A DNA stretch of 21,408 nucleotides from a virus: positions 1-21,408 of the IMG/VR virus record IMGVR_UViG_3300012920_000337. One strand, 5' to 3'. Shown in pieces: positions 12,480 through 21,255 of this stretch. The notes under the pieces are model-generated. The model saw nothing but the letters and a program-made list of their open reading frames with translations. It searched no databases and was not told the origin of the DNA. Position 1 is the stretch's first letter. Every line of letters begins with the position of its first letter. The translations under genes were made by a program, and so were the position numbers.

Positions 12480-12796
12480 TCTTCTTCCCCCATTGGTGGA
12501 ATAGCGACCCATGCTCGCCTATCGTGAGAAACCCAAGTATAAACATGAGTTTTGTAAAACTCTTCAAGACGCTTCTCTCGCTCGGTTCGCTTTTCGTTCT
12601 TCTTTCGCCATTGAACGCCTTTATTTTCTCTTGGTTTATTTTTATCATTAGGATGAGCATTTGCGTGTCGTTCTGCTCTATCCAACAAAGAAATCTTTTC
12701 GGGTTCTTGCATTGGCCTGTCTGGATATTTAGCGGCTGTGCTTAGACCACTTTTGATTGATTTAAAATTTTGTCCAGTTGAAATATTATTCTTCAT
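12476..12796 (-). CDS. Unknown highly basic, probably disordered protein
   Basis: A 106-residue protein, very rich in Lys, Arg, Asn and Glu, with few hydrophobic residues between 20 and 75, so mostly disordered. A helix (KRTEREKRLEEFYKTHVY) precedes a short aromatic C-terminal patch (YTWVSHDRRAWVAIPP). Unrecognised. ATG overlaps the JAMM gene's stop, with GGGGTGAAGAAGA as SD; its own GGGGAAGAAGAATGA end serves the GroES-like gene. It could bind nucleic acid, or be a client or substrate of the neighbouring systems. Confidence 0.65.
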   Translation of the reverse strand: MKNNISTGQNFKSIKSGLSTAAKYPDRPMQEPEKISLLDRAERHANAHPNDKNKPRENKGVQWRKKNEKRTEREKRLEEFYKTHVYTWVSHDRRAWVAIPPMGEEE

Positions 12797-13374
12797 TCTT
12801 CTTCACCCCATGTTTGGATTTTATGCTCTTCATTATTCACATAGATTTCTAATTGTTTAGGATTAGATTCGTTCTCCCAAAAACCATACTGATTGTCTCC
12901 AAGAACATAGGCACATTCCATATTTGGCTCCCAAATAGAAACAGTCCGAATGTCCGTTCCGCTAAAGTATGCGGCTCCAAACGGATGAGTATGAATCCAG
13001 CAACGAATAGGAAGACTCATACCAATTGGAGGCTCAAAGAAATCAACAAAACCCGGACCTCCTGTTGAAACGAAACAATTGTTCTTTGCATCAATTACAA
13101 CCTGCACTTCAAGATTAGGCAAGGTTTCCGTAGATGCTCGCCAAATACTTTCGTGAAATTCTAAATGATGCATAGCAACACCTTCTAGTTTTTCTCTTGG
13201 GCCAGCACAAGAACGCAACTGTTGATTCAAAAGAATCTCATAGTGAGTCTTAATATCATTCATCGCCTTCTGTCGGAAATACTCCAGTTCTGCTTGTTCA
13301 ATTTGATAATGGTCATAAATATCATCACCATCATCATTACCATCTTTAATCATTTTATCTTTAATTCTTCCCAT
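12793..13374 (-). CDS. JAMM (JAB/MPN+) metalloprotease, candidate deubiquitinase-like isopeptidase
   Basis: A 193-residue protein with a complete JAMM zinc motif: H128-T-H130, then seven residues to S138, and D141 (HTHPFGAAYFSGTD). A Glu upstream (E72 or E75, in LEFHESIW) is positioned to be the catalytic acid. JAMM enzymes cleave after a C-terminal Gly-Gly of ubiquitin-like modifiers or trim them, and they are encoded with E1-like enzymes in archaeal and bacterial ubiquitin-like pathways. Here the E1-like gene is two genes upstream and a candidate modifier ending VGGNY is 8 kb upstream. The first 60 residues form a charged helix of unknown role. RadC-type DNA-related JAB proteins are the alternative, but the HTHPxG...S..D context favours isopeptidase. 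Confidence 0.85.
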   Translation of the reverse strand: MGRIKDKMIKDGNDDGDDIYDHYQIEQAELEYFRQKAMNDIKTHYEILLNQQLRSCAGPREKLEGVAMHHLEFHESIWRASTETLPNLEVQVVIDAKNNCFVSTGGPGFVDFFEPPIGMSLPIRCWIHTHPFGAAYFSGTDIRTVSIWEPNMECAYVLGDNQYGFWENESNPKQLEIYVNNEEHKIQTWGEEE

Positions 13375-14544: not shown

Positions 14545-15102
14545 TTACATATTTAATACGGTGTATTCTTTTACTTCTTCTCCGTTGAAGAACCTTTGCG
14601 TCCATTGTGCTCCTAATCCTGCAATTGCGACTTGCATAAAATGAACTCCTTTATTTGTTCCATCCCATGAATCTCCTTGACAACTGAATGAACCTTCTTC
14701 ACCTGCTAAGAGCATATCATACATTTTTGGGTCGGCCTTGTGCGACACAAGGGCGGCATTTCTACCCTGCGCTCGTAGGTCTAACCATTTAATACTTGTG
14801 TTGTATAAGGTTCGCCTCACACTCAAGTTATCAACACAACAAATCACAAGGTCATACCCTTGCATTTGCTTCTTGGTCAAAATAGGGTATTCACTACCAA
14901 CACTGATAGAATCATAGTTTTCCGCCATAATTGCTGCTTTATTACGACTTACATGGCCTAGATTAAAGTTTTGATAAGGTATATTCTTACCTTCAACTGA
15001 ATCTGGGTCAGCCACAGTTATATCATAAAGCCCTACTTTATCTAAAAGTGGAATTAGAAAACTTCCAATTCCACCTGCTCCAATTACTAATACTTTTCTC
15101 AT
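14545..15102 (-). CDS. Small E1/ThiF-like adenylating enzyme
   Basis: A 185-residue ThiF/MoeB/E1-family protein that would adenylate the C-terminal glycine of a ubiquitin-like protein. It has the nucleotide-binding loop GAGGIGS at 8-14, DPD at 32-34 followed by the conserved Asn (N40) and Gln (Q44), and R53/K55. D91 in the CVDN segment matches the Mg-binding Asp of the family, and C141 (FSCQG) sits where the catalytic cysteine region lies. It lacks the CxxC zinc pairs of MoeB and is shorter than the usual 230-250. Together with JAMM and the GG-ending protein it suggests a modifier pathway. Start ATG overlaps the previous stop, with GGAGG about seven bases upstream. Unusual in an archaeal virus. 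Confidence 0.85.
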   Translation of the reverse strand: MRKVLVIGAGGIGSFLIPLLDKVGLYDITVADPDSVEGKNIPYQNFNLGHVSRNKAAIMAENYDSISVGSEYPILTKKQMQGYDLVICCVDNLSVRRTLYNTSIKWLDLRAQGRNAALVSHKADPKMYDMLLAGEEGSFSCQGDSWDGTNKGVHFMQVAIAGLGAQWTQRFFNGEEVKEYTVLNM

Positions 15103-15512
15103 TCATATTCCTCCTTAATCTTTTTCCAATCAATTTCTAGAGAACAAAACTCACAATTTTCATCCCCACAATCTTCCACTCCAACCTTCTTTTCAAGAGT
15201 ATAGTTTAGATATGCGTCATATTCAGAATGCCAGACAACTAAATGCCCCATATTCTCATACTTCTCAACTTCGGCTTCCTCTTTAGAAAGAGGAAGAATA
15301 TCGTTAGGTTTTACATTTTTCTCACAAACAGGACAATCCCAATTAAAGGTTAGAATATAATCCAATGCCGCAACAGGGTCGGACATTGACATAATCATTA
15401 AATCAGACTCTTGCATAAATTCTTTGACCTTTTCTACACAAAAAGGACAATCTGTTCGTAATTCTTCAAGAGTTTTACGATTAGCCTCTTCTAATTCTTT
15501 TTTATATTCCAT
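15099..15512 (-). CDS. Multi-zinc-binding protein
   Basis: A 137-residue acidic protein with three cysteine pairs or clusters: C22-x2-C25, C60-x2-C63 and C115-x4-C120-x2-C123, plus H90 and H95. Two zinc ions could be bound. The spacing between the first two pairs is long (34 residues), so a cross-brace (RING-like) arrangement is conceivable but not evident from the order of ligands. Directly upstream of the E1-like gene and overlapping it by four bases, it is a candidate partner, adaptor or E3-like factor in that pathway, which is inference. GGAGG lies seven bases before the ATG; its terminal AAG GAG GAA codons carry the E1 gene's SD. Confidence 0.65.
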   Translation of the reverse strand: MEYKKELEEANRKTLEELRTDCPFCVEKVKEFMQESDLMIMSMSDPVAALDYILTFNWDCPVCEKNVKPNDILPLSKEEAEVEKYENMGHLVVWHSEYDAYLNYTLEKKVGVEDCGDENCEFCSLEIDWKKIKEEYE

Positions 15513-16177: not shown

Positions 16178-17037
16178 AATTTTTTCCCCCTAATTTCTTT
16201 GACTTTAGTCATATTGAGATAGGATAACAGGGTTTTAGTGTTTTTCATTAAACTATCTCTTTTTCTGTTTGTCTTTTCACAAATGTATTTTTGTGAGATT
16301 TCTGTATGCGAAAGAATCGCATTTGCGGTAATCCAACAAATACATTCATAGTGATTAACTGTTTTGTTATAGTCATTTGCTTCAAGAATAGTTTCAAAAT
16401 ATTCCATCGTCTTGACCGCTTCCTTGTTGAAGTCGTTTCCAGCATTTAACTTAGAAAGAACTCTATCTAAAAGAAAGTGTTGGTTCTCACGCACAGGTCT
16501 AAACCCTACATGTTTCTTTATCTTCTTTACAACCTTTTTTGCTTTCGGTATTTCTGAAGATAAATCTAAAGCAACCTCTTCAAAGGTATGCGGCATACCT
16601 TGATTCAATAGCATAAAATACACAATAGATACTGCCCTTGTTTCATAGGTGTCGCTTGTTGAAAATATGCCTTTATTAAATAAATCAAGGTAAAGTTTAT
16701 GCATTTCTTCTTGATTTAGAAGATGACTAAACGGTGCAAAAACCATATTGCAGTTATGCAAACCATCCATAACATATGTAGGTAGAACAGAATTAACTGT
16801 TTTCTTTACTACATGAGACCTAATATTTTTGATATTACCACCAATTGATGAGCCTAATCCACGATTAAACAATCCCAGATTGGCGGTATGGGTGGCTTCA
16901 CCACCTTTAATGCCTAAAGTAGTCTGTTCAAAGATTTCAACATCAAGAACAAGACCACAATTAGAACAGACGGTTTCTCCAAGAGATTCGTCAAATTCGT
17001 TATCTCGGCTTCCACATTCTTCACATTTCAATTTCAT
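16171..17037 (-). CDS. tfb: Transcription initiation factor B (archaeal TFB / TFIIB homolog)
   Basis: A TFB of about 288 residues, the archaeal factor that joins TBP at promoters and recruits RNA polymerase. The N-terminus is the zinc ribbon (C5-x2-C8 and C24-x2-C27, with the typical E-x-V-C-x-N-C-G-L-V-L). A linker follows, then two cyclin-like helical repeats (roughly residues 95-185 and 190-280). I start at the ATG at 17037; GGAT lies nine bases upstream and the gene overlaps the end of the previous one by 17 bases. An in-frame extension to 17073 is less likely. The length matches TFB (about 300). A viral TFB would redirect host polymerase to viral promoters such as the one at 21248. Confidence 0.92.
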   Translation of the reverse strand: MKLKCEECGSRDNEFDESLGETVCSNCGLVLDVEIFEQTTLGIKGGEATHTANLGLFNRGLGSSIGGNIKNIRSHVVKKTVNSVLPTYVMDGLHNCNMVFAPFSHLLNQEEMHKLYLDLFNKGIFSTSDTYETRAVSIVYFMLLNQGMPHTFEEVALDLSSEIPKAKKVVKKIKKHVGFRPVRENQHFLLDRVLSKLNAGNDFNKEAVKTMEYFETILEANDYNKTVNHYECICWITANAILSHTEISQKYICEKTNRKRDSLMKNTKTLLSYLNMTKVKEIRGKKLW

Positions 17038-18151
17038 TAAAATCAATCCTATTTTCATTCTTATCTCCGACAAGGTAGCGTCGGATAGTGCTTACAATTT
17101 GTGTGGTAAAAGAGTCATTTAATAAGGCTAACGCTCTTGCGGCGAATTGGTCGCCAAGCGAAGAACCTTTCGCCATGTTATCAATACAGATTGGCCCTCT
17201 CCAATCTAAGTTATCTGGCTCACTTTTTGAAATTGGTTGCCAGACATAGGTTGAAACCATCTGAACTTCAGACTTGAACTTAGTGTCAGTAATCTTCCAA
17301 TCATAGTCTTGACCCTTCACATAAAGAGAAGAAAGGTCGCCGTTTGGCTCATAGGTGGCCTTAAGTCTATCAGGATATTGGTTTAGAAGTTCTTGAACTA
17401 ACTCAATTGCTCGTTGCTCAACAATATCCTGTGTTCGGTTTTGTGCAAGGAAGGCTCTCATCACCTTCATACTTGACTCCGAAGCATCTTCATCCATTAA
17501 ACGATAATAAAGTTCATCAGGACTAATATTTACCCAAGAACCCACTTTCTTTCCATGCAAATAGAAATTACAGAAAGTATTTAATTCTCGGACAGTCATT
17601 GTTCCCCAAATACCATCACTAATCTCAACTGCGATTTCTTTATCGCCAATCTGCTGACAGTTAAGACGAACCTCAATTCTTTCACGACTCTCATTGAAAT
17701 CATAAAAGAAATAAGGAATACGATTTTCAAGACAATACTTTACATCGGCAGGAAGATTCAGCGTTGCATACAAAGTGAGCAACAACTTAGCAGGGTCTTT
17801 TTCAAAACAAGATTTATATGTCAAACGAGCCAATGCAGAAATAATATCTGCCAAATTAGCAACTTTACCATTAATCTCATAACGAATACCTGAACGAGAA
17901 AGTAAGACAGGACAGGAACCAATTTTAACTAAATGGTTAAATGTAGGTTGAAAGCCAGTCCTTTTGTAATATCTTGTTCTTTTGGGAGAGAGATAATTTC
18001 TCCAAAAACCTTCAATACCTGCTAGAATAGGGTCTTTCTTTGACCTATCTGGGCTAATATTCGTATCTTTAAAGTTAAAAGTCTCACAATGAATCTCAGT
18101 TCTATTATATGAACGGCTATCATCGGGTTTTGAAATTTGAATTTTCGCCAT
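17021..18151 (-). CDS. Large unknown protein upstream of TFB
   Basis: A 376-residue soluble protein that I cannot assign. It is mixed alpha/beta with scattered cysteines (C22, C79, C115, C139 and others) and no clear CxxC pair, P-loop or nuclease motif. Residues 35-75 are basic and aromatic (FWRNYLSPKRTRYYKRTGF). Residues 150-200 (FFYDFNESRERIEVRLN to GTMTVRELNTFC) look like beta strands plus helix. The C-terminus is helical with a basic patch. It could be a nucleic-acid enzyme or a structural protein. The start codon has only a weak GATGTGA. No transmembrane segment is seen. It is the largest uncharacterised protein here, between RNR-linked genes and TFB. Confidence 0.75.
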   Translation of the reverse strand: MAKIQISKPDDSRSYNRTEIHCETFNFKDTNISPDRSKKDPILAGIEGFWRNYLSPKRTRYYKRTGFQPTFNHLVKIGSCPVLLSRSGIRYEINGKVANLADIISALARLTYKSCFEKDPAKLLLTLYATLNLPADVKYCLENRIPYFFYDFNESRERIEVRLNCQQIGDKEIAVEISDGIWGTMTVRELNTFCNFYLHGKKVGSWVNISPDELYYRLMDEDASESSMKVMRAFLAQNRTQDIVEQRAIELVQELLNQYPDRLKATYEPNGDLSSLYVKGQDYDWKITDTKFKSEVQMVSTYVWQPISKSEPDNLDWRGPICIDNMAKGSSLGDQFAARALALLNDSFTTQIVSTIRRYLVGDKNENRIDFNEIEM

Positions 18152-20923: not shown

Positions 20924-20966
20924 AAAAAAGGGGAAGCCGCCAGTTAATATAACTAGCGACTCCCCC
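20924..20966 (-). terminator. Strong terminator-like hairpin with T-run, containing a TATA-like loop
   Basis: On the minus strand a 16-bp stem (GGGGGAGTCGCTAGTT pairing with AACTGGCGGCTTCCCC, including three G-T wobbles) with the 5-base loop ATATT is followed immediately by TTTTTT. This is a textbook intrinsic terminator shape and would end the transcript of the 68-residue gene. The apex also reads TTATATTAA, a possible TATA box for the gene starting at 20918. So the element may be terminator, promoter or both. Confidence 0.7.
20943..20951 (-). promoter_or_regulatory. Possible TATA box for the 20918 gene
   Basis: TTATATTAA at the hairpin apex lies about 25-30 bases before the start codon at 20918, the distance at which archaeal transcription begins. 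The gene has no normal SD, consistent with a leaderless message. It overlaps the terminator-like hairpin, so its use is uncertain. Confidence 0.35.
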
Positions 20967-20991: not shown

Positions 20992-21012
20992 GGAATTACT
21001 TTCAGTAATTCC
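20992..21012 (-). terminator. Perfect 9-bp hairpin at the stop codon of the 68-residue gene
   Basis: GGAATTACT and AGTAATTCC pair with a 3-base loop; the TGA stop lies at the apex. Minus-strand sequence after it is TTTCTG, only a short T-run. It may stabilise the 3' end, slow termination of translation, or help end transcription together with the stronger hairpin 26 bases downstream. Confidence 0.5.
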
Positions 21013-21208
21013 CTCCAACAATTGCGGGGGTCAAGTCCACCGATTGAACGGTGTCCCAGTTGATTCCTGCAATACTTTCTCTAGCAACCATTTCTCCATC
21101 AATAAAAACCCAATGGGTCGGATGGTCGCCAATTTGCTCAATCACTTCAGATGAAGCGAGCATTAAATCTGTATGGCCTGTTTCATTCAAAATTCGTAGT
21201 CTAATCAT
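21002..21208 (-). CDS. Candidate ubiquitin-like modifier protein ending in Gly-Gly-Asn-Tyr
   Basis: A 68-residue protein starting at the ATG at 21208 (GGAG eight bases upstream; an in-frame extension to 21244 would read through the leader). Its pattern follows a beta-grasp: strand MIRLRILNETG, strand TDLMLASSE, helix VIEQIG, strand HWVFIDGEMV, then a turn and final strand QSVDLTPAIVGG. The length and the strand-turn-strand-helix-strand order match ubiquitin (76 residues). The C-terminus is VGG followed by two residues (NY), like precursor modifiers that a protease trims to expose Gly-Gly. A JAMM protease and an E1-like enzyme are encoded downstream. It has its own promoter and is flanked by hairpins. 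No sequence-level match can be tested here; the fold is inferred from pattern. MoaD/ThiS-type sulfur carriers share this fold and are the alternative. Confidence 0.5.
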   Translation of the reverse strand: MIRLRILNETGHTDLMLASSEVIEQIGDHPTHWVFIDGEMVARESIAGINWDTVQSVDLTPAIVGGNY

Positions 21209-21234
21209 TGTATCAACTCCTGTTGTATTCTTTC

Positions 21235-21247: not shown

Positions 21248-21255
21248 TATATAAA
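21248..21255 (-). promoter_or_regulatory. Archaeal TATA box for the ubiquitin-like gene
   Basis: Minus-strand TTTATATA matches the archaeal TATA-box consensus and lies about 40 bases before the ATG at 21208. This predicts a transcription start near 21225 and a leader of about 17 bases that would still contain the GGAG. A GC-rich stretch (AAGCCC) precedes it. It is the clearest promoter in the window. Confidence 0.6.

Follow-up and report, generated by a model that had tools for sequence, protein, structure and literature searches.

The window analyzed here is a stretch of 21,408 nucleotides, positions 1 to 21,408 of the IMG/VR virus record IMGVR_UViG_3300012920_000337, and it carries on its minus strand a small gene for a candidate ubiquitin-like modifier and, downstream on the same strand, genes for an E1-like activating enzyme and a JAMM metalloprotease. 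We propose with moderate confidence, from sequence comparisons and structural models, that the small gene codes for a virus-specific ubiquitin-like modifier that would be the tag of a compact, three-part, E2-less conjugation system in magrovirus-like archaeal viruses. The features of the modifier gene are as follows.

21002..21208, minus strand: open reading frame of the predicted ubiquitin-like modifier, 68 amino acids, beta-grasp, C-terminus ...LTPAIVGG-NY (reading frame and translation, viral homologs, AlphaFold2, Foldseek)
21005..21016, minus strand: last four codons, Gly-Gly-Asn-Tyr, with Gly-Gly invariant and Asn-Tyr hypervariable (80-locus alignment and codon count)
21217..21221, minus strand: Shine-Dalgarno sequence AGGAG of the modifier gene (sequence)
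21248..21255, minus strand: archaeal TATA box TTTATATA, 47 bases upstream of the start codon (sequence)
20930..20966, minus strand: terminator-like hairpin of 17 bp followed by six U, 3' of the modifier gene (fold -30.1 kcal/mol, z -4.97)

The modifier gene and its Gly-Gly end

A sequence-only reading of this DNA had pointed to a 68-residue protein ending in VGGNY, and this reading frame is real: it runs on the minus strand from the ATG at 21208 to the stop codon at 21002-21004, and its translation, MIRLRILNETGHTDLMLASSEVIEQIGDHPTHWVFIDGEMVARESIAGINWDTVQSVDLTPAIVGGNY, ends in IVGGNY. Of 68 distinct loci, 49 have a TATA-like motif ahead of the modifier gene, whereas only 3 of 67 have one ahead of the E1-like gene, and the next gene on the same strand starts about 80 bases 3' of the modifier gene with the hairpin lying between them. 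Since the gene has its own TATA box and its own terminator-like hairpin, it looks like a separately transcribed unit.

The first search gave homologs in 80 viral loci and all 80 end in AIVGG followed by 0, 1 or 2 residues. As a guard against seeding on the conserved tail, a control search was done with only the first 56 residues of the modifier as the query, and here too all 62 relatives, with identity down to 55%, end in GG followed by 0 to 2 residues. The conservation of GG is therefore not a search bias; no homolog without it was found in either search, and the prediction that related viruses would keep the terminal GG was borne out. The residues that precede GG drift among the relatives (LTPAIV, LIPAMV, LVPAVV, LQEAVV, LQEAVI), those that follow it are hypervariable (NY, SL, CY, NL, Y, C, Q, IR, WA or none), and the Gly-Gly pair, GGA GGG in the window, is written with 14 of the 16 possible codon pairs across the 80 loci. 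Because the flanks drift, the trailing residues are hypervariable and nearly all codon pairs are in use, the constraint on GG, as read from these alignments, is at the level of the protein, and the pattern of variation is that of a ubiquitin-like precursor. The variety of codons, the gap of about 80 bases and the hairpin also rule out that the GG codons are the ribosome-binding site of the following gene, as the sequence-only reading had argued. The modifier ends exactly at GG in 17 of the 80 loci; parsimony on the E1 tree requires at least four gains or losses of trailing residues, although the well-supported branches taken alone force only one. In identity between genomes the modifier ranks 4th to 6th among 63-73 shared proteins.

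The beta-grasp fold had been set beforehand as a test of the prediction, and the models agree with it. The AlphaFold2 model, built with 43 homologs, has a mean predicted local distance difference test score (pLDDT) of 81.7 and the order strand-strand-helix-strand-strand-short helix-strand, which is the element order of ubiquitin, with the last four residues disordered. Foldseek searches of the PDB returned mainly ubiquitin-like domains, SUMO-like domains, the archaeal protein Mth1743 and ThiS, each match being weak individually, and in the viral library BFVD there was one phage protein at probability 1.00 together with several giant-virus ubiquitin-like proteins. From these models the assignment to the beta-grasp class is well supported but is not tied to any one family. 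None of the 43 members matched the ThiS/MoaD/SAMP family PF02597, the modifier did not match PRTRC protein C (Prok_Ub, PF14454), and a profile search against PDB sequences gave nothing useful. Identity with PRTRC-type or lambda-type systems was rejected for want of a match. Many members match the PinA protease inhibitor in Pfam below threshold (best E-value 1.4e-4; in the members inspected, at most 17 bits where the cut-off is 27), and a PinA-like identity was rejected because there were only such sub-threshold matches.

Matches to the modifier in genomes were confined to viral-looking contigs within one metagenome-assembled genome. These contigs, NZTP01000027.1 and NZTP01000030.1, belong to a bacterial assembly labelled Altibacter and have modifiers that are 81-85% identical; they are almost certainly misbinned virus contigs. 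Another contig, IMGVR_UViG_3300021958_000021 (184,733 bp), has two different modifier loci separated by about 93 kb, and each of them comes with E1 and JAMM genes of its own; either the assembly has fused two virus genomes or this is a genome of unusual, double length.

The activating enzyme, the metalloprotease and their co-inheritance

The sequence-only reading had also placed an E1-like gene and a JAMM gene in the window, and both are present on the strand of the modifier gene, the first about 5.9 kb and the second about 7.6 kb downstream of it.

14545..15102, minus strand: predicted minimal E1/ThiF-like activating enzyme, 185 amino acids (PF00899, PDB profile matches, AlphaFold2 and Foldseek)
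12793..13374, minus strand: predicted JAMM metalloprotease, 193 amino acids, with E89, H128, H130, S138 and D141 invariant or nearly so (Prok-JAB, AMSH profile, alignment)

The E1-like protein matches ThiF in Pfam (PF00899, E-value 3e-15), its best NCBIfam matches are to ThiF, and its profile finds UBA5, Cap2, NEDD8-E1, MoeB and ThiF in the PDB. Its AlphaFold2 model (pLDDT 91.3) is close to UBA5 (template modeling score, TM, 0.74; E-value 1e-11) and ThiF (TM 0.76), with E-values of about 1e-11 to 1e-9, and Cap2 is also among the nearest solved folds found by Foldseek. The protein starts seven residues ahead of GxGG and has the nucleotide-site motifs of the family; invariant in the alignment are GxGGIG, D32/D34, K39-N40, K55, C-x-D91-N92, R96 and C141. 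The only invariant cysteines are C141 and C89, and C141 lies in the loop that is modeled with the lowest confidence. A CxxC-rich protein of 137 amino acids (15099-15512, minus strand), whose gene overlaps the E1 start by 4 bases, has weak TusA and RING matches and is present in only 6 related loci; it may be an accessory or E3-like component in a subset of the viruses.

The JAMM protein matches Prok-JAB of Pfam below the cut-off (E-value 0.0012), and its profile matches AMSH deubiquitinases in the PDB (E-value 1e-4) exactly across the catalytic stretch WIHTHPFGxAYFSGxD. The putative catalytic site is intact, with E89, H128-T-H-P131, S138 and D141 each conserved in a fraction of 0.99-1.00 of 68 distinct sequences. 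The JAMM protein ends in Glu-Glu-Glu which, unlike the GG of the modifier, is located where the ribosome-binding site of the downstream gene would be. Such endings are frequent among the proteins of the window (gene ends 12793, 8776, 9129, 12258 and others) and are probably the purine-rich ribosome-binding site of an overlapping next gene read in frame.

When loci were anchored on the modifier, E1 was found in 77 of 80 and JAMM in 76 of 80, and in the loci without one or the other the sequence extends barely or not at all beyond the position expected for the gene. With E1 as an independent anchor, 60 of 80 loci have a modifier upstream in the same orientation, and in the remaining 20 the sequence runs out within about 5 kb on the upstream side of E1. 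Every E1-anchored locus with sufficient upstream sequence has the modifier (60/60), 59 of these 60 also have JAMM, and in all 59 three-gene loci the three genes are on one strand. In one 84.5-kb genome the genes for TFB, E1 and JAMM, downstream of the modifier, each overlap by four bases. Because of this co-conservation there is strong support, at the level of gene content, for a functional link between the modifier and the E1-like and JAMM genes, and it is very likely that the three belong to one ubiquitin-like pathway, be it conjugation or sulfur transfer. In this respect the proposal that the small protein is the modifier of such a pathway stood, and the choice between the two, which it had left undecided, leans to conjugation for the reasons given below.

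Also in the window are genes for an RFC small subunit, an ATP-dependent DNA ligase, a TFB zinc ribbon, a GroEL-like chaperonin and a class II ribonucleotide reductase, and the nearest relatives of the window are contigs of about 90-100 kb with a family B DNA polymerase. This gene content matches the published description of Magrovirales, which are tailed viruses of Poseidoniales archaea (PMC10768690), and the viruses are apparently magroviruses. Between the modifier and E1 genes lies a gene for a 376-amino-acid protein (17021-18151, minus strand) that is present in 79 of the 80 modifier loci and has no match in Pfam or NCBIfam; it is a candidate target or partner of the modifier.

Conjugation weighed against other readings

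It had been suggested that the modifier is a precursor that needs trimming by a protease, and for most members, which have residues after GG, this would hold. It cannot be so for the 17 members that already end at GG, and E1 and JAMM are retained in all 17 of these loci. Since JAMM is kept there, trimming cannot, on these gene contents, be its sole job; a role as a pure trimming enzyme is rejected on the same ground, and JAMM probably also, or mainly, strips the modifier from its targets.

The same finding bears on whether the modifier is a sulfur carrier, in which case JAMM would expose Gly-Gly, E1 would adenylate it, and host enzymes would make a thiocarboxylate whose sulfur goes to a tRNA base, a cofactor or a metabolite needed in infection. 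The pathways to compare are those of thioquinolobactin (QbsE/QbsD/QbsC), CysO/Mec+ and Urm1/TtuB. Among the listed PDB entries, ThiS indeed gives the modifier its highest TM-scores (0.54 and 0.48), the E1-like protein has ThiF both as its best NCBIfam match and among its best-fitting folds, the trimming of two residues by a JAMM protein has precedent in such pathways, and a search for E2 in 30 virus records found none, the E2 control search being empty too. On the other hand, rhodanese, cysteine desulfurase, TtuA-type PP-loop proteins and PAPS reductase are absent from the same 30 records, in searches whose controls worked, and no viral sulfur-relay or sulfur-acceptor enzyme was seen in them, although host enzymes could fill the missing steps. 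JAMM is also retained in all 17 loci where nothing has to be trimmed, which speaks against a sulfur carrier, yet CysO-type pathways also use a JAMM protein after activation. Because no sulfur-relay enzyme is seen, conjugation is favored, and sulfur transfer is kept as a possible, if rather doubtful, reading.

We put at about even the chance that magroviruses own a complete E2-less conjugation cycle of modifier, minimal E1 and deconjugase that is conserved in infection and tags host or virion proteins. In such a cycle the modifier would be transcribed from its own TATA promoter and end at its own terminator, and residues beyond Gly-Gly, where present, would be cut off, probably by the viral JAMM. 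The minimal E1 would then adenylate the C-terminal glycine and transfer it, possibly through a thioester on the single conserved loop cysteine, C141. Amines on host or viral proteins would be the acceptors of the glycine, with no recognizable viral E2 taking part, just as the archaeal SAMP and Urm1 systems work without one, and JAMM would take the modifier off again.

Several observations weigh against the conjugation reading. The E1-like protein is without the zinc cysteine pairs and the N-terminal helix of canonical E1s and has a Tyr at a position where an ATP-contacting Arg is usual, and the chemistry of such a non-canonical viral E1 may differ. The search for E2 (PF00179) came back empty, and so did its control. 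Pfam, NCBIfam and PHROG give the modifier no match above cut-off. Every PDB Foldseek match of the modifier has an E-value of at least 0.1, the best listed TM being the 0.54 to ThiS, and its Foldseek E-values are above 0.05 throughout with the single exception of one BFVD match at 0.007. These weak individual fold scores, with the sub-threshold PinA matches in many members, would fit a small non-modifier protein that resembles a beta-grasp by chance, has its GG tail for structural reasons and has nothing to do with the E1 and JAMM genes. It is hard to explain in this way an absolute constraint on GG at a free C-terminus with drifting flanks, or the complete co-inheritance with E1 and JAMM, and there was no PinA chain in the PDB profile search; we consider such a protein very improbable.

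Co-inheritance also bears on a counter-defense role, in which the host SAMP machinery would conjugate the modifier and the virus would use its E1-like and JAMM proteins to divert or strip host SAMP. Archaeal Borg elements hold many deSAMPylases that are thought to oppose host tagging, and phages are tagged by bacteria via a ubiquitin-like system (PMC12660748 and work cited there). A virus that only strips tags would need neither a modifier nor an E1, yet all three genes are inherited together, and the modifier is virus-specific, the few matches in genomes being those in the viral-looking contigs described above. We regard a counter-defense role as unlikely.

Related systems and significance

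The favored reading, E2-less conjugation, has its closest cellular likeness in the SAMP/UbaA/HvJAMM1 system of haloarchaea, which has a beta-grasp modifier with a C-terminal GG, one E1, a JAMM deconjugase and no E2. Here, by comparison, the genes are viral, most modifiers extend past GG, there is no ThiS/MoaD match in Pfam, and the E1 has 185 amino acids against the 270 positions of the UbaA model and is without zinc cysteines. Borgs are likewise archaeal mobile elements with JAMM proteins, and one Borg has a SAMP, but their E1 is placed in the host genome and their JAMM genes are multicopy (PMC12660748), whereas in the present viruses a single modifier gene is co-conserved with a single E1 gene and a single JAMM gene. 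The bacterial Bil, E1-E2-JAB and CBASS Cap2/Cap3 systems also combine an E1 with a JAMM-type protease in defense-related tagging, but they have an E2 domain and defend the host, whereas the present genes are owned by the virus and no E2 was seen in a search whose control was also empty. In phage lambda, TAPI and TAPK pair a beta-grasp protein having a conserved Gly with a JAB domain, but these are tail-assembly genes with an extra C-terminal domain and no E1 (PMC1779556).

CrAss-like phages (DAC15, bajarodcaudo virus) have cassettes in which a Prok-JAB gene adjoins a ThiF/E1 gene, but the phage E1 is 284-336 amino acids long and only 27-30% identical, and the phage JAB gene codes for 365-401 amino acids. 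Beside these two genes is a conserved uncharacterized protein of 249-255 amino acids; the cassettes, annotated as thiamine biosynthesis or hypothetical, are a possible second viral tagging system. No homolog of the modifier was found in the phage collection.

In none of these closest precedents does an archaeal virus have, among its conserved genes, a free GG modifier together with E1 and JAMM. No publication linking magroviruses and ubiquitin was found in the literature searched, the original 2017 magrovirus paper being outside that search, and, to judge from that literature, no prokaryotic virus has been described whose conserved genes include modifier, activating enzyme and deconjugase together. 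Viruses commonly hijack or counter ubiquitin-like tagging. If our proposal is true, these viruses would have a minimal tagging system of three small proteins (68, 185 and 193 amino acids) that could be rebuilt in the test tube, and the question would be raised what an archaeal virus gains from protein tagging. The uncultured viruses of Poseidoniales would gain a concrete, testable biochemical activity, and tagging would be at work in one of the most abundant groups of archaea in the ocean.
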